From positions 992,001 to 1,056,000 of the forward strand of contig NZ_CP022604.1 of NCBI RefSeq assembly GCF_002278035.1: a stretch of 64,000 bases of DNA. The letters run 5' to 3'. The notes under the pieces were generated by a model. That model ran no database searches and was not told the DNA's origin. It saw only the letters and a program-made list of their open reading frames with translations. This DNA is from Ochrobactrum quorumnocens. GTDB lineage: Bacteria; Pseudomonadota; Alphaproteobacteria; Rhizobiales; Rhizobiaceae. The translations under genes were made by a program, and so were the position numbers. Position 1 is the first letter of the stretch, and each line of letters opens with the position of its first letter. Below, one piece after another: positions 28,440 through 38,093 of the stretch.

Positions 28440-29507
28440 ATGGCTGTTTTGTCAGATTACACCTCTGGCACGATAACGCTTGCCAATGGCTCAACGGCTG
28501 TGACCGGAACCGGCACGCTGTTCGATGTGGCGAAGTTTCGTGAAGGTGACACGCTTCAAATTCAGAACCTGACGGCCGTCATTGCCAGCGTGAACAGTAA
28601 TACATCGCTGACCCTGACTGAGCCGTGGACTGGCACTTCGCTGGCCGATGCGCCTTATCGCGCGCGATATTTGCCAGACGGTGCTCGCGTGACTGCGCAG
28701 GCTATGACGCTGATCGAATTGCTCGGCAATGGTGTTCTATCCAATCTTGCTGAGCTCGGTGTCGAAGAGGGCAAAGTGCCTGTCGGTAATGCGGCTGGTG
28801 AGTATGAGTTGAAGGATCAGTCGACCTTCGGCGTCCAAGACCCGAACGGCAGTCTTGGAAAGTTGGCTGCTTTGGTGTTGGCTGCGAACAAATTTCTAAG
28901 CACCGACACCGATGAAAACGTTGTCCAGTCTGACATTACTGCGGCTGCAATCGCACTGCTCAATCTCGGCGGCGCAGCGGCAGCGGACCGGCTGCCTTAT
29001 CTTAATGGTGCCAGTGGTGCGGCGCTTACACCGATAACGCCCGTCGCTCGCAACCTCTTGGATGACACAACAACTGCGGGACAAAGAGCAACGCTTGGAC
29101 TTGCTAGGCCTGCTTTCAAAGCAACTGTACTAAACGATGTTTCTCTATCAAATGGCGTAAATATTGTTTCGTTTCAAAATGTAAACGTAAATGTAGGGAA
29201 CGGATGGAACGGAACAGTATTTACCGCTCCAGAAGATGGATTATATTACTTCGGTTGTGATTTTACCATAACTGGAGGTGTTGAGAATAATGGAAACACA
29301 ATTCTATCATTGTTCGTAAGGAATAATTGGTGGCAAGAAACTGTCAGAGCTAGAAGAACAGATTACTTTCATGGAATTGAACTCAACACCATCACACGAC
29401 TTGCAGCCGGGGAAACATTTCAACCAAGATTAACTCTTGAGGGTTGGGCAGGTACAGTTAAAGCGGCTGGCGGTAGAGGCTCTTGTTATGGTGCTTTAAT
29501 AGGATAG
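28440..29507 (+). CDS. Tail fibre with C1q/TNF-like tip
   Basis: The 355-aa product has an N-terminal phage-fibre part (SGTITLANGSTAVTGTGT) rich in Ala/Leu/Thr, then from about residue 225 a compact jelly-roll-like domain with FTAPEDGLYYFGCDF and NNGNTILSLFV, the pattern of C1q-like domains. The DNA for this tip (about 29110-29507) is clearly richer in A and T than the rest of the gene, suggesting recent exchange of the receptor-binding part. Confidence 0.75.
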   Translation: MAVLSDYTSGTITLANGSTAVTGTGTLFDVAKFREGDTLQIQNLTAVIASVNSNTSLTLTEPWTGTSLADAPYRARYLPDGARVTAQAMTLIELLGNGVLSNLAELGVEEGKVPVGNAAGEYELKDQSTFGVQDPNGSLGKLAALVLAANKFLSTDTDENVVQSDITAAAIALLNLGGAAAADRLPYLNGASGAALTPITPVARNLLDDTTTAGQRATLGLARPAFKATVLNDVSLSNGVNIVSFQNVNVNVGNGWNGTVFTAPEDGLYYFGCDFTITGGVENNGNTILSLFVRNNWWQETVRARRTDYFHGIELNTITRLAAGETFQPRLTLEGWAGTVKAAGGRGSCYGALIG

Positions 29508-29981: not shown

Positions 29982-30104
29982 TCAGAAGCGAACGCGACGG
30001 TTTTGGGCGAGCAACGCCAAGAACACTACGGCCAGAATGGGCACTGCCCCGCCGATAACTACCTGCCCGATATCTGACGCAATGAACTCTCTTACTTGGC
30101 TCAT
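29982..30104 (-). CDS. Small membrane protein, 40 aa
   Basis: ATG 30102-30104 is preceded on the minus strand by AAGGGAG at good spacing. The product has a single hydrophobic span (VVIGGAVPILAVVFLALLA) and a basic tail (QNRRVRF). It is the last gene downstream of the stem-loop array on the minus strand and so may be expressed from the prophage. Function unknown; a small toxin or superinfection factor is possible. Confidence 0.6.
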   Translation of the reverse strand: MSQVREFIASDIGQVVIGGAVPILAVVFLALLAQNRRVRF

Positions 30105-30120
30105 CACTACTCCCTTACTG

Positions 30121-30194
30121 AAGAAACCCCGACTGACCTCTCAGAAAGCCGGGGCTACGCAAGCCTCCAGTCGCGTTAGATTGTTGGCTTACGC
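30121..30194 (-). ncRNA. Module A: putative small leftward RNA
   Basis: Variable stem 30158-30165/30186-30193 (one mismatch), then terminator 30127-30154 and a TTTCTT run. The promoter is unclear; TAAAGC lies upstream. Confidence 0.35.
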
Positions 30195-30221
30195 CTGACA
30201 GCTTTACACTTGTGGCGAGGC

Positions 30222-30295
30222 AAAGAAAACCCCGGCAGGCGGGCAGCCATGACCGGGGTGGCGCTCAATTGCATTGATCAGAAACCGTTGAACGC
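30222..30295 (-). ncRNA. Module B: putative small leftward RNA
   Basis: Stem GCGTTCAA/TTGAGCGC style pairing at 30261-30268/30288-30295 with one mismatch, terminator 30230-30258, TTTTCTTT. An extended -10-like TGCTAACTA lies a few nt upstream. Confidence 0.4.
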
Positions 30296-30321
30296 AGCCT
30301 TAGTTAGCAAGGGTCACGCAG

Positions 30322-30427
30322 AAAGAAAAGCCCCAAGGACACTTGCGATCTCTGGGGCCGATCCCGGCAGGCGGGCAGCCATGACCGGGGTGGTATCACG
30401 TGGACGCCTTGATTGTTCACGCGATAC
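30322..30427 (-). ncRNA. Module D: putative small leftward RNA
   Basis: Stem 30394-30402/30418-30426 (one mismatch, 15-nt loop), followed by a hairpin without U-tract (30363-30390) and one with it (30330-30358). Extended -10-like TGATACAGT (30434-30442) lies about 7 nt before the stem. Nearly the same block recurs at 31337-31385. Confidence 0.45.
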
Positions 30428-30451
30428 GGGAAAACTGTATCACCAAAAACA

Positions 30452-30525
30452 AATAAGAAAACCCCGCCACGTCTCCCAACGTCACGGGGCTGCGCATCAA
30501 CGGGCATGCGATTGTCTCAGCGCGC
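30452..30525 (-). ncRNA. Module E: putative small leftward RNA
   Basis: A weak GCGC/GCGC stem (30492-30495/30522-30525), then terminator 30462-30489 and TTTTCTTATTTG. Extended -10-like TGCTATTTA lies just upstream. The weakest of the paired modules. Confidence 0.35.
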
Positions 30526-30550
30526 TGTGTAAATAGCAAAATTAGGGCAA

Positions 30551-30627
30551 AAGAAAACCCCGGTGAAAGGGACCAAGCCGGGGCCATTCACTGGTGCAAC
30601 CGAGCGGGGTGCTCATAGCAGTGAATG
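30551..30627 (-). ncRNA. Module F: putative small leftward RNA
   Basis: Perfect 9-bp stem CATTCACTG/CAGTGAATG (30585-30593/30619-30627), terminator 30558-30583 with TTTTCTTTT. On the minus strand TTGATC (30655-30660) and TATCTC (30633-30638) are 16 nt apart and end 5 nt before the stem. Confidence 0.5.
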
Positions 30628-30677
30628 ACTAGGAGATATCGCGGCATAGCGGTTGATCAATACCTGGTCAGAAAAAA

Positions 30678-30714
30678 GCCCCGACCTTGAGGTGTATCGC
30701 TCAATAGCCGGGGC
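30678..30714 (-). terminator. Isolated terminator of the array
   Basis: GCCCCG/CGGGGC (30678-30683/30709-30714) with an inner TTGAG/CTCAA stem (30687-30691/30700-30704); minus-strand TTTTTTC follows. It lies 88 bp downstream of the end of the 75-aa minus-strand gene and probably terminates it. Confidence 0.65.
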
Positions 30715-30801
30715 AAATTTTACATTCATGCCATTTTATATTCTCACAATCTCAGGAAAACACAATGTCACTCGCCATCAGAGCCACGCAGCCTGACGAA
30801 G

Positions 30802-31029
30802 CTATTGATCCCGTTCTACAGCGAAACTCGGAGCGTCATCGCCTTTCCCATGTTGAAGAAATTCGATTAGTTCGGCCATCAACGCTTCAGCCACGGGGTT
30901 GATCATTGCCAGCTCGATCATTCCTGTATCTGTCTTTAGTGTCAGAATGCCGAGTAGCGGATCCTCATTGAGGACTGTAGTTCCAGCGCCCAGAATTTTA
31001 TTGAACCCGGGACGTGATGGTTTAGCCAT
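30802..31029 (-). CDS. Hypothetical phage protein, 75 aa
   Basis: ATG 31027-31029 to TAG 30802-30804; an in-frame upstream extension to 31083 exists but adds no recognisable part. The product has a beta-rich core (GILTLKTDTGMIELAMINPV) and an acidic helical end. It is the only protein gene inside the stem-loop array, with a terminator downstream at 30678-30714. Function unknown. Confidence 0.6.
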   Translation of the reverse strand: MAKPSRPGFNKILGAGTTVLNEDPLLGILTLKTDTGMIELAMINPVAEALMAELIEFLQHGKGDDAPSFAVERDQ

Positions 31030-31152
31030 TGTGTGAGCCTCAATTGCGAAGGTTTTGCAGCCAGAGTAGCCGCTCATTACCAAGCTGGATCAATTATAAA
31101 CATAAGTGAACTGCCGACTATACCGGCTGCGGCAATCTCGTTCGAATTTAGA

Positions 31153-31235
31153 CAATAAAAACCCCGGCGATGAGAGCCATCTGGTTCGCCGGGGCTATTC
31201 ACTGTCGTGATTGAGTGGAGGTTTGTAACAGTGAA
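31153..31235 (-). ncRNA. Module H: putative small leftward RNA
   Basis: Perfect 8-bp stem TTCACTGT/ACAGTGAA (31198-31205/31228-31235), then the strongest terminator of the set (9-bp stem CCCCGGCGA, 31162-31170/31186-31194) and TTTTTATTG. TTCACT (31265-31270) and TAGCTT (31243-31248) are 16 nt apart, 7 nt before the stem. Stem sequence matches that of module F. Confidence 0.5.
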
Positions 31236-31300
31236 CACCGTTAAGCTAGGGCGCAGATCTGTGAAGTGAACTAGTCGCAGGAGCAAAATTATAGTTCATA

Positions 31301-31370
31301 AGAAACCCCGGCTGACCTCCCAGAAAGCCGGGGCGGCATCACGTGGACGCCCTGATTGTTCACGAGATGC
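31301..31370 (-). ncRNA. Module D': putative small leftward RNA
   Basis: Stem CATCACGTG/CACGAGATG (31337-31345/31361-31369), terminator 31306-31333 with 8-bp stem and TTTCTT. Extended -10-like TGATACAGT at 31377-31385 lies 7 nt upstream. It is the second copy of module D with a paired T-A to C-G change at the stem base. Confidence 0.5.
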
Positions 31371-31397
31371 GGGAAAACTGTATCACCAAAAACAAAC

Positions 31398-31480
31398 AAG
31401 AAAAACCCCGGCTCGGAGGTCCATGCCGGGGTCTGCGCACCGATTGGGTAAGCGGGGGGGGGCTTGGGATCCGGTGCGCA
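31398..31480 (-). ncRNA. Module J: putative small leftward RNA with C9 loop
   Basis: Perfect 9-bp stem TGCGCACCG/CGGTGCGCA (31434-31442/31472-31480); the loop has nine C on the minus strand (31454-31462). Terminator 31406-31431, TTTTTCTTG. TTCACT (31509-31514) and TACATT (31486-31491) are 17 nt apart, 5 nt before the stem. Confidence 0.5.
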
Positions 31481-31559
31481 TTAACAATGTAAGGCACCAG
31501 TCAGGGTGAGTGAACCCGCTCTGTCATAACGATATCTTAAAAGAGGAAACAAACAAAAA

Positions 31560-31579
31560 CCCCGGAGATGGGACCGGGG
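31560..31579. terminator. Bidirectional terminator at the array's right end
   Basis: CCCCGG (31560-31565) pairs with CCGGGG (31574-31579), with five A before and TTT after, so it works on either strand. It lies just downstream of the 37-aa minus-strand gene. Confidence 0.75.
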
Positions 31580-31597
31580 TTTGATTTAAAACTAGTG

Positions 31598-31711
31598 TTA
31601 CAGTTTACGTCGGTTGTTCATGTAGTACCTGATCTCTTTCCAGCCGATCAAGGCTACCACATATGACAGCGTAGCAAGAATAGCCGCTTCAAATAGCAAA
31701 ACCCAAATCAT
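31598..31711 (-). CDS. Small membrane protein, 37 aa
   Basis: ATG 31709-31711 to TAA 31598-31600. One hydrophobic span (WVLLFEAAILATLSYVVALI) followed by a basic, aromatic tail (KEIRYYMNNRRKL). It follows the DUF982 gene by 9 bp and precedes a terminator, so both are probably one leftward unit. Function unknown. Confidence 0.55.
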   Translation of the reverse strand: MIWVLLFEAAILATLSYVVALIGWKEIRYYMNNRRKL

Positions 31712-31720
31712 GATGCGCTT

Positions 31721-32023
31721 TCAAGCCTGAACTAGGCCGCCTCCTGATTTTTTGCCCTTCATCCAAGGGATCGCAACTTCTGGTTTTTCGAGAATTCCGT
31801 TCTTCTTGGCGAAACCTCGAATGGCGCTCTCTGCCGCTTTCACTGGTTTGATGCCATCGTGGCTGTCGCAGCACGCTTTCCAAGCGGTTTCGTAAATGTG
31901 GCCACGGTCATATTCGGGCCACTCGTAGAGAAAATCTAGCGCATCTCCGATGCTGGCAATCTCACGCACAAGGTATGGCCCGTCCTTCACGAATACAGGA
32001 CGGTCAAACAAACGATCGTTCAT
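31721..32023 (-). CDS. DUF982 family protein
   Basis: The 100-aa product matches the rhizobial DUF982 family: RPVFVKDGPYLVREIASI near the N-terminus, DALDFLYEWPEYDRG, then AWKACCDS and a helical C-terminus. Members are small soluble proteins of unknown function found in many copies in Rhizobiales. ATG 32021-32023 has GGAGG 7 nt upstream, which decides the start against the longer frame to 32113. It diverges from the lysis operon. Confidence 0.8.
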   Translation of the reverse strand: MNDRLFDRPVFVKDGPYLVREIASIGDALDFLYEWPEYDRGHIYETAWKACCDSHDGIKPVKAAESAIRGFAKKNGILEKPEVAIPWMKGKKSGGGLVQA

Positions 32024-32127
32024 CGAAGCCTCCATTTGATCGAACGCGTTACGTCGGAATGACGGCTTCGATTTAGTCAGTAATCGCGCCCTTTCAAGAG
32101 GGCAATTTATCAAAATATGAGGGAAAA

Positions 32128-32853
32128 ATGAATACGCACCTTGGCGATACCCGCCTCTTGATTGAGGCGGGTCGAAAGCGTGGACTATTGCGCAATCAGA
32201 TGGCGTATGTGTTGGCCACTGCGTACCACGAGACTGCGCACACGATGAAGCCGATCAATGAGATGGGCGGTGAGAAGTATCTCCGGTCCAAGAAATACTG
32301 GCCGTATATCGGGCGCGGATACGTCCAGATCACTTGGAAGGCCAACTATGAAAAGGCTGGCAGAGTTCTGGGTATTGACTTCGTGTTGAAGCCTGAACTT
32401 CTCCTGCAGCCCAAATACGCGGCACCGATCATTATCGCGGGGATGGTCGAAGGCTGGTTCACCGGCAAGAAGCTGTCGGATTACATCACCCTGCAGAAGT
32501 CTGATTTCAAGAACGCTCGCCGGATCGTCAATGGCACGGACAAGGCCGAATTGATCGCTGGATATGCCAAGGATTACGATAAGGCCTTGCTTGCAGAAGG
32601 TTATGGCGTTGGCCAGGTGGTGACTGCACCGGCTGCTGATGTGGTGCCAACTCCGGTTGAGGAAAAACCAATATCGAAATCTTCGCGCTTCTGGACGTGG
32701 ATCGGCAGCGGTGGCGCAGGTGCTGCAATCCCGTTTGTCGATTGGCGGGTACAGATGGCGCTTGTCGTGTTCGTTCTTGCGCTCGCGGCTTATGCAATCT
32801 TCACCATGCCACAGGCCAAGGCCAAGCTTGAGAAGCTGGTGGACGCGCTATGA
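32128..32853 (+). CDS. Endolysin, GH19-type with C-terminal membrane segment
   Basis: The 241-aa product has a GH19 chitinase/lysozyme-like domain (about residues 1-150): the catalytic Glu in ATAYHETAHTMKP and the signature YIGRGYVQITWKANYEKAG. A Pro/Val-rich linker follows (about 160-178) and then a C-terminal hydrophobic span (MALVVFVLALAAYAIFTM, about 211-228). It should cut peptidoglycan; the anchor suggests it is held in the membrane until triggered. ATG preceded by GAGGG. Overlaps the spanin gene by ATGA. Confidence 0.85.
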   Translation: MNTHLGDTRLLIEAGRKRGLLRNQMAYVLATAYHETAHTMKPINEMGGEKYLRSKKYWPYIGRGYVQITWKANYEKAGRVLGIDFVLKPELLLQPKYAAPIIIAGMVEGWFTGKKLSDYITLQKSDFKNARRIVNGTDKAELIAGYAKDYDKALLAEGYGVGQVVTAPAADVVPTPVEEKPISKSSRFWTWIGSGGAGAAIPFVDWRVQMALVVFVLALAAYAIFTMPQAKAKLEKLVDAL

Positions 32854-33935: not shown

Positions 33936-34001
33936 GGCCCCACGTATCCCAATGTCGCGGGGCCACGCAAGTGGTCGTACCCCAGCTTCCTCCAAGCTGG
34001 G
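33936..34001. terminator. Array-type hairpin and plus-strand terminator
   Basis: GGCCCC/GGGGCC (33936-33941/33959-33964) resembles the array terminators and is followed by a CCAC-GCAA-GTGG hairpin. A second stem CCCAGCTT/AAGCTGGG (33981-33988/33994-34001) ends in AATTTATT. Together they separate the lysis operon from the leftward genes beyond. Confidence 0.65.
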
Positions 34002-36888: not shown

Positions 36889-37082
36889 TCATTTGGAATA
36901 AGAGTCAATCCGCCTTTTTGCGGTTGTGGAAATCCGCCCTTAACGGGGTGGCTATCGGTGGCAAAACACCGAAAAGCGGCGGTCTTCGATTGGCGTCTAG
37001 CCCGCCCGGCATGACGGTAGGTCAAATGCCACACCCCGACCCTTGCGGGCGCGGGCATACTGGCCTCTACAGGTTAATAAAA

Positions 37083-38063: not shown

Positions 38064-38093
38064 GCCCCGGCGCTCTTCCCAAAACACCGGGGC
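38064..38093. repeat. Array-type CCCCGG hairpin
   Basis: GCCCCGG/CCGGGGC (38064-38070/38087-38093) matches the hairpins of the 30-31.6 kb array. No U-tract follows on the minus strand. Confidence 0.6.

Follow-up and report, generated by a model that had tools for sequence, protein, structure and literature searches.

Location and composition of the array

The stretch of DNA analysed here, referred to as the window, is 64,000 nucleotides (nt) of the Ochrobactrum quorumnocens chromosome (contig NZ_CP022604.1, positions 992,001 to 1,056,000). It includes a prophage in which an array of hairpins lies on the minus strand at 30119–31581, between a tail-fibre-like gene and an endolysin gene that are both on the opposite strand. 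There are ten CCCC-N-GGGG hairpins, at 30127–31579, and all ten have a T-tract 3' of the hairpin on the minus strand. Nine have Ts on the leftward side only, while the hairpin at 31560–31579 also has them on its plus-strand side. This agrees with an earlier note on this DNA, in which most of the U-tracts were placed on the minus strand alone. An eleventh hairpin, at 30363–30391, has the 5' arm CCCGG, lacks a U-tract and lies inside module 3; the total of eleven given in that note is therefore correct. The second stem that it had described on the 5' side of eight of the hairpins is likewise present, with eight array modules having a 5' hairpin and folding z-scores of -1.7 to -6.6. In 1000 dinucleotide shuffles of the array region there was a mean of 0.05 such terminators and a maximum of 2, against the ten observed, and the 82 other 1460-bp stretches of the window have at most one each.

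The modules are listed below with their folding z-scores and their matches to R1, a covariance model built on 16 modules that share a 5' type. Numbers of modules per hairpin type are from a clustering of 130 hairpin modules, a few of which are probably hairpins from outside the family (for example cluster f14/t11).

30119–30200, minus: module 1; type B 5' hairpin with conserved loop ACGCGACTGG and covarying stem; terminator hairpin CCCCGG-CUUUCUGAGAGGUCAG-UCGGGG; z -3.3; weak R1 match, E 2.9.
30222–30297, minus: module 2; 5' hairpin and terminator hairpin with loop UCAUGGCUGCCCGCCUG, a recurrent 3' type (10 modules); z -3.35; R1 match, E 0.0014.
30322–30428, minus: module 3; 107 nt with three hairpins, in order a 5' hairpin GUAUCGCG..CGUGAUAC, a copy of the UCAUGGCUGCCCGCCUG hairpin that has CCCGG and lacks the U-tract, and terminator GCCCCAGAGAUCGCAAGUGUCCUUGGGGC; the last two occur together in 4 modules, as f07/t08; z -3.86; no R1 match at E≤5.
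30454–30525, minus: module 4; 5' hairpin CGCUGAGACAAUCGCAUGCCCGUUGAUGCG and terminator with loop GACGUUGGGAGACGUG; this 3' type is the largest (18 modules, with 7 different 5' types); z -1.7; weak R1 match, E 1.8.
30550–30628, minus: module 5; 5' hairpin AUUCACUG..CAGUGAAU and terminator; z -3.65; R1 match, E 3e-6.
30670–30716, minus: module 6; terminator hairpin only, without a 5' hairpin; TGTGAGAATAT, a promoter string also seen ahead of other modules, is just upstream at 30738–30748; z -4.59; no R1 match at E≤5.
31154–31238, minus: module 7; 5' hairpin GUUCACUG..CAGUGAAU and terminator CCCCGGCG..CGCCGGGG; z -5.75; R1 match, E 6e-7.
31298–31372, minus: module 8; the 5' hairpin is a relative of the one in module 3, and the terminator has loop UUUCUGGGAGGUCA; shares with module 3 an 81-nt repeat (91%); z -2.5; weak R1 match, E 0.32.
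31398–31481, minus: module 9; type A 5' hairpin (GCGCACCG..AAGCCCCC..CGGUGCGC) and terminator with loop CAUGGACCUCCGAG; z -6.64; R1 match, E 1.9e-12, this sequence itself being in the R1 training set.
31552–31581, minus: terminator that lies 3' of a small hydrophobic open reading frame (ORF), at the upstream end of the array, with Ts on the plus strand too; z -2.89; weak R1 match, E 0.17.

Support from R1 is thus uneven within the array, three of the ten hairpins having E<1e-5, one 0.0014 and four 0.17–2.9, with two having none. For the promoter string of module 6, TGTGAGANNAT has one match in the window, where the chance mean is 0.41.

Recurrence of the modules

BLAST located pieces of the array at another 15 sites of the window's genome, and 13 of the other 34 genus genomes sampled have such pieces too. 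Among 25 genomes of other genera there was a piece in one, and this was a bare hairpin (L022). IMG/VR contigs carry arrays made from the same hairpins. At E≤5, R1 has 183 matches spread over 51 loci, many being modules with other loops, and a second model, R2, was made from the best 150 of these (A4). The pair counts of A4 are biased in favour of the structure in the model itself and are left out of the argument. Among the 35 genus genomes R2 detects the family, at E≤0.01, in 31. Matches from 13 of the 35 were used to train it, therefore the independent test is confined to the other 22, of which 18 have the family at E≤0.01 and 9 at E≤0.001; the counts of this genus survey include weak single matches, some possibly due to chance. 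Conservation in related prophages had been set beforehand as a test of the earlier note, and it was found: the modules recur, their stems covary and the model finds the family.

Outside the genus the family is scarce. In a sample of 297 genomes from the order, R2 at E≤0.001 matched the window's own genome and 4 of the 296 others, with one match in each of the four (E 7e-5 to 8e-4). R1 at 1e-4 matched 3 of 121 genomes of the family, all from the window's genus (1 of 109 genera). Both of these surveys used Infernal's stricter filters, which lose weak matches. Species identified as carrying one 3' hairpin are Brucella pseudogrignonensis and B. thiophenivorans, both formerly placed in Ochrobactrum. 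The array sequence had no blastn match in phage or plasmid collections from which records near the window's genome were possibly excluded. The Ochrobactrum phages POA1180 and POI1126 (PMC5492332; this and the other papers cited were available as excerpts) have no module except for one weak match at E 0.066, so that some phages of these hosts lack the arrays.

A 16-base string was also found in 18 viral stretches, of which at least seven (L056, L058, L061, L062, L066, L068 and L070) are unrelated phages in which it apparently occurs by chance; of these seven, L068 was outside the R1 search.

Structure and covariation

Of the 154 GGGG-type terminators across the loci, 48 have a good 5' stem (score ≥18) in front of them; the shuffle rate is 5%. 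Before other terminators the figure is 32 of 377, against 6% in shuffles. Covariation was measured on MAFFT alignments made without reference to structure. In the type B 5' stem (13 sequences), 94% of the cells pair and 13 cells are changed on both sides, where 4.1±2.1 are expected, a number reached in 0 of 500 shuffles. Across the two stems of type A, 96% pair, and there are 7 doubly changed pairs against 1.8±1.0 (0 of 500 shuffles). Sliding the 3' partner by 1–3 columns lowers the pairing to 51% or less in both types. The structures were drawn by inspecting the same sequences, which gives some bias in their favour, and the shuffle tests are inflated by kinship between the sequences.

The core of the type B loop is 82% identical, compared with 68% both for the stem and for the loop as a whole. 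In type D (five sequences) the string GGGTCTTTAAAACCCTGTGG is nearly fixed while the stems are quite different.

Promoters and the layout of the modules

A promoter profile was made from 116 non-redundant modules, taken from the 150 A4 rows and from 43 of 59 further places after removal of near-identical upstream regions, matches shorter than 60 nt and those without 70 nt upstream. The modules of at least 60 nt that were kept are 62–92 nt long (median 77). Aligned at the 5' stem, they have A at -9 in 74%, T at -5 in 55% and T at -32 and -31 in 72% and 70%. This profile reads as a promoter held at a constant distance upstream of the 5' stem, its -10 and -35 separated by about 16 nt. The same treatment of 243 non-family terminators from the same loci gave a flat profile with no promoter signal. 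The mean best -10 score of the modules, 3.43, compares with a shuffle mean of 2.32 and a shuffle maximum of 2.72.

In the 70 nt upstream of the stem, 52 of the 116 modules have a GGGG arm with Ts after it. In 28 of these 52 the arm ends 32–34 nt before the stem, and in 18 it does so at exactly 33, whereas only 4 of 125 control terminators have such an arm within 60 nt. The U-tract of one module therefore covers the -35 region of the next. The 74 modules without GGGG at that distance keep TT there (66% and 58%); the class treated as preceded was selected for GGGG 28–42 nt upstream, and 4 of the 116 modules are in neither class. Overlap of the U-tract with the next -35 in tandem copies means that the units are laid out as nose-to-tail cassettes.

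With the promoter just before the 5' hairpin and the terminator hairpin immediately after it, each unit is predicted to yield an RNA of about 75 nt with two hairpins. Judged by sequence only, the modules fit an independent small RNA (sRNA) gene with a promoter at one end and an intrinsic terminator at the other. The earlier note had read the region as a set of short leftward RNAs with their own promoters, and the recurrence, the covarying stems and the positioned -35 and -10 elements all argue for this. The starts that it had proposed (30426, 30627, 31235, 31369 and 31480) are about 3 nt or less from the base of the 5' stem, as the genus-wide profile predicts.

Re-pairing of hairpins and turnover of the array

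The 5' and 3' hairpins are found in many combinations. The largest 5' type in the clustering (19 modules) is joined to 13 3' types, and loop words such as AGCCCCCGCT and UCAUGGCUGCCCGCCUG are found in both 5' and 3' hairpins. A sister prophage in the same genome is 98.9% identical to the window prophage over 30795–32289, and has 121 bp in place of 30198–30794 and its five modules. In another genus genome (L040) the array retains both ends but has a different interior. From these comparisons, interior modules are evidently gained and lost between arrays.

Multicopy, dispersed modules that turn over could in principle be selfish or passive repeats, either palindromic insertions or the debris of recombination collecting in a permissive gap. 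Copies of the same type, however, share loops and covarying stems rather than a uniform sequence with ends. The promoter and terminator also stay in register, which is not expected of drifting debris, and an origin of this kind is considered highly improbable. The re-sorting of hairpins across the viruses of the genus points to a fast-changing set of regulatory RNAs that appears not to have been described.

Strand and genome setting

Within a locus the modules are on one strand in 15 of 16 loci. They are opposite to the tail or endolysin homologues in all 14 loci having both (the window, L033, L034, L036, L038, L042, L043, L048, L049, L051, L072, L074, L075 and L076), and four of these, not counting the window itself, belong to the window's genome or to its sister contigs. 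The opposite orientation would fit expression in the lysogen while the late genes are silent.

The same orientation would be seen if the leftward promoters and terminators formed a transcriptional barrier that keeps the tail and lysis genes silent in the lysogen, the RNAs being by-products, and the nine of ten window terminators with Ts on the leftward side only are also in keeping with this. A barrier has no need of loop words that are conserved and re-paired across phages. Nor does it need the solitary two-hairpin modules that are found outside arrays, some of them in places that are not obviously phage (their neighbours being outside the family searches). We therefore regard a barrier as an improbable explanation of the array.

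Loop sequences and the action of the predicted RNAs

The loops are kept and are re-paired on variable stems, which suggests that they are the working parts of the RNAs. The 126 distinct loop words at the threshold used are C-rich (33.5% C), with AGCCCC in 10 of them against 1.3 in shuffles. Words resembling an anti-Shine-Dalgarno (anti-SD) sequence are in weak excess (25 of 126 against 17.5, p ~0.03). Pairing at translation starts, of the kind described for the sRNAs sX13 and ar14, is proposed as the working model for the C-rich loops.

It is moderately probable, in our assessment, that the array is a series of separate sRNA genes placed opposite the late genes, with loops that pair with mRNAs and block translation, and that phages exchange the modules. 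Each module, with its -35 and -10 promoter, 5' hairpin and terminator hairpin, would be transcribed in the lysogen into an RNA of about 75 nt with two hairpins. Through their single-stranded loops these RNAs would pair with mRNAs, the C-rich loops mainly with G-rich ribosome-binding sites, and translation would be blocked. Exchange of modules between phages would then change the set of genes regulated, whether of the host or of rival phages.

Several results weigh against this explanation. Transcription of the modules is itself something that we infer from comparison. The type B loop taken whole is 68% identical, no more conserved than its stem. The anti-SD excess is slight and many of the loops are not C-rich. 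When the loop words were compared with 518 predicted translation starts there were 21 antisense 10-mers against 18.6 in shuffles, and 7- and 8-mers were somewhat over the mean but within the shuffle range; seeds of 4–6 nt are undetectable in this comparison. A 12-mer antisense search of fetched phage-rich DNA gave matches for 77 of 171 loops against 58–74, self-hits included, and with 12- to 14-mers in 0.9 Mb with the modules masked there was no convincing antisense excess. The apparent 14-mer excess in the masked DNA (16 of 179 words against 2–6 in four shuffles) is mostly due to module copies missed by the mask. The 12- to 14-mer search covered both strands, so its sense control equals the antisense count and is uninformative.

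The failure of the antisense searches to find targets would be explained if the RNAs are made but their loops bind protein or RNA partners, as a decoy or sponge for an RNA-binding protein, the ribosome or another sRNA, rather than mRNAs. Some loop words are SD-like (9 of 126 against 5.7 in shuffles, p 0.13), and the authors describing the prophage RNA svsR, in the excerpt available, inferred a similar mode of action after finding no complementary match (PMC12803456). Against this, 126 distinct loop words are too diverse for one protein partner, and loop-loop complementarity among the modules is not above that in shuffles. A decoy or sponge is considered unlikely.

The mRNA-pairing explanation can be taken further. 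The temperate phages of the genus may carry a combinatorial and exchangeable library of two-loop antisense RNAs, in which the terminator of one unit supplies the -35 of the next and which is aimed at rival phages or at host mRNAs. This would be a heritable, recombining RNA cassette for immunity or control that works without Cas-like proteins, and we put it forward as a doubtful extension. svsR sets a precedent for a role against other phages, which for the RNAs of the array would be speculative.

Two matches between loops and other sequences were seen in passing. A 15-nt perfect complement of loop type GACCTACCGTC, from other arrays, is present in the window at 37013–37027 (plus strand) near the start of a D12-class DNA methylase ORF, which is estimated to be within chance for many words compared with about 1 Mb. 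The neighbouring modules at 31306 and 31406 have, by eye, a shared 7-nt complement.

Comparison with known RNAs

Searches of Rfam 15 at gathering cut-offs found a single tRNA in the window, no sRNA family in 9 further array loci, and five tRNAs and one S-element with no sRNA family in 16 other loci. At E≤1 over 30000–31700 the only match was to anti-hemB, at 17.7 bits against a cut-off of 49.5. The ar14 model (RF02344) at E≤1 has nine matches in the whole genome, of which six are over the cut-off and none of these six is in the window; of the three below it, one is in the window near 56.9 kb and none is in the array.

In the excerpt available, the ar14/NfeR1 family is made up of alphaproteobacterial trans-acting sRNAs that are multicopy, with hypervariable stems, a conserved unpaired loop motif and a sigma-70 promoter with conserved residues (PMC7143759). 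The array modules resemble these in their variable stems, which covary in types A and B, in the several copies per genome and in a promoter with conserved positions. For the loops the likeness is mixed, since in type B the core is more alike than the stem but the whole loop is not, while type D keeps its loop string on different stems. They differ in having generally two hairpins and many loop words, where ar14 as described has three hairpins and one same anti-SD motif in all, and in their tandem arrangement in prophages. The sX13 RNA of Xanthomonas is described as strongly structured and Hfq-independent, with C-rich loops that act on G-rich motifs near translation starts (PMC3771888). C-rich loops are a likeness to the array modules, though not all of the loop words conform; sX13, according to the same excerpt, is one RNA that folds into three stem-loops and has an unstructured 5' end, whereas here there is an array of different modules.

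The CcsR, or cuckoo, RNAs have a two-hairpin form and a CUCCUCCC loop motif. CcsR1-4 of Rhodobacter are reported to be tandem sRNAs from one co-transcript cut by RNase E (PMC7866481). The array likewise consists of tandem alphaproteobacterial small RNAs, here predicted, but unlike CcsR1-4 as so described each module has promoter-like elements and a terminator. The cuckoo motif CTCCTCCC is in a parsed loop in none of the 116 modules and elsewhere in one of the 116. The account available of svsR/co293 is of a short prophage sRNA from the 3' end of the cI gene, svsR limiting infection by other phages (PMC12803456). As so described svsR is a single RNA, whereas the array is made of interchangeable units; svsR is a precedent for benefit to the lysogen.

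The C4, P4 CI and sar antisense immunity RNAs are structured phage RNAs of about 70–80 nt that act by loop pairing. Unlike these, the array has no Rfam match at gathering, and no complementary target was found in the DNA searched. In some CRISPR arrays the repeats carry promoters, so that variable units each have a promoter element. The units here differ from those of CRISPR in having two structured hairpins each, and no constant direct repeat separating spacers was found among the best 20 of 31 direct-repeat families.

In the open-licence literature of PubMed Central (PMC), such arrays are undescribed among the matches listed (titles and abstract openings), and a text search with six loop sequences found no match. 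As there is no Rfam match at gathering, the ar14 copies are elsewhere, the cuckoo motif is not in the loops and no description was found, the array is taken to be a probable new RNA family, a variant of tandem regulatory sRNAs. Such arrays are easily mistaken for a run of terminators. For Brucella phage BiPBO1, the available excerpt reports 19 predicted terminators and does not mention small RNAs (PMC4729917).

If expressed, this would be a hypervariable, modular sRNA family that, in the samples searched, is mostly restricted to a single genus. It would offer a natural system in which hairpin shuffling can exchange both the loops, the likely target words, and the scaffold of stems, promoter and terminator. 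The evolution of sRNA targeting, and a possible use in competition between phages, would then be directly testable.

Neighbouring genes and solitary modules

The ORFs inside and around the array and a solitary hairpin further along the window are as follows.

28440–29504, plus: tail-fibre-like gene (PHROG tail protein, E 1.7e-26).
29985–30104, minus: 40-codon hydrophobic ORF downstream of the array.
30805–31032, minus: 76-codon ORF (MAKPSRPGFNK...) inside the array.
31601–31711, minus: 37-codon hydrophobic ORF (MIWVLLFEAAILATLSYVVALIGWKEIRYYMNNRRKL) upstream of the array.
31724–32041, minus: DUF982 gene upstream of the array (PF06169, E 2.4e-11).
32128–32850, plus: endolysin gene (PHROG endolysin, E 8.7e-32).
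33936–33990, minus: solitary hairpin with a GACGUUGGGAGACGUG-like terminator (3' cluster t00); z -2.14.

The best PHROG for the tail-fibre-like gene (E 9.5e-51) is one of no known function. The 76-codon ORF has homologues in four other loci (L034, L036, L041 and L042), and PHROG and Pfam searches with it gave no match. The array stretch is therefore not wholly non-coding, and the earlier description of it as having almost no protein coding holds in part, given this ORF and the small ORFs on its flanks. Of these, the 37-codon ORF is 100% identical in L034 and L040 and the 40-codon ORF about 80% identical in the same two loci; both are without a Pfam family. Homologues of the DUF982 gene are present in five other loci (L034, L040, L033, L043 and L051).

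Two hairpins elsewhere in the window had also been called related. For that at 33936–33964 the terminator does cluster with the GACGTTGGGAGACGTG type, although R1 reports nothing there at E≤5. By eye, the 5' part of 33936–33990 is like that of other solitary modules (GGAGGAAG.GGG). The hairpin at 38064–38093 is of related sequence but has no minus-strand U-tract and is not reported by R1; it is possibly a decayed or a different element. In cluster f03 (L034:9112-9182 and others) the 5' loop has GGAGGAA, followed by an ATG and a seven-codon frame ending in the terminator stem; this ATG is missing from the window copy at 33936.

Modules were also noted in other settings. Two are in tandem at L103:4805-4992, in surroundings that do not look like phage, beside two genes that resemble Ku homologues, judged from their N-termini. 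Three modules and an endolysin-like fragment are on a 19.7 kb contig (L033, G000:C1), possibly a phage plasmid or a fragment of the assembly. A match to the Rfam S-element (RF00490, 74 bits) is near a solitary module at L101:2620-2687. Single modules, with loops CTCACCCCCCGGGTG and CCTACCCCCCCGGGTG, are present at L098 and L099 in a 3.3 Mb genome (G026), therefore the family is not limited to large genomes.

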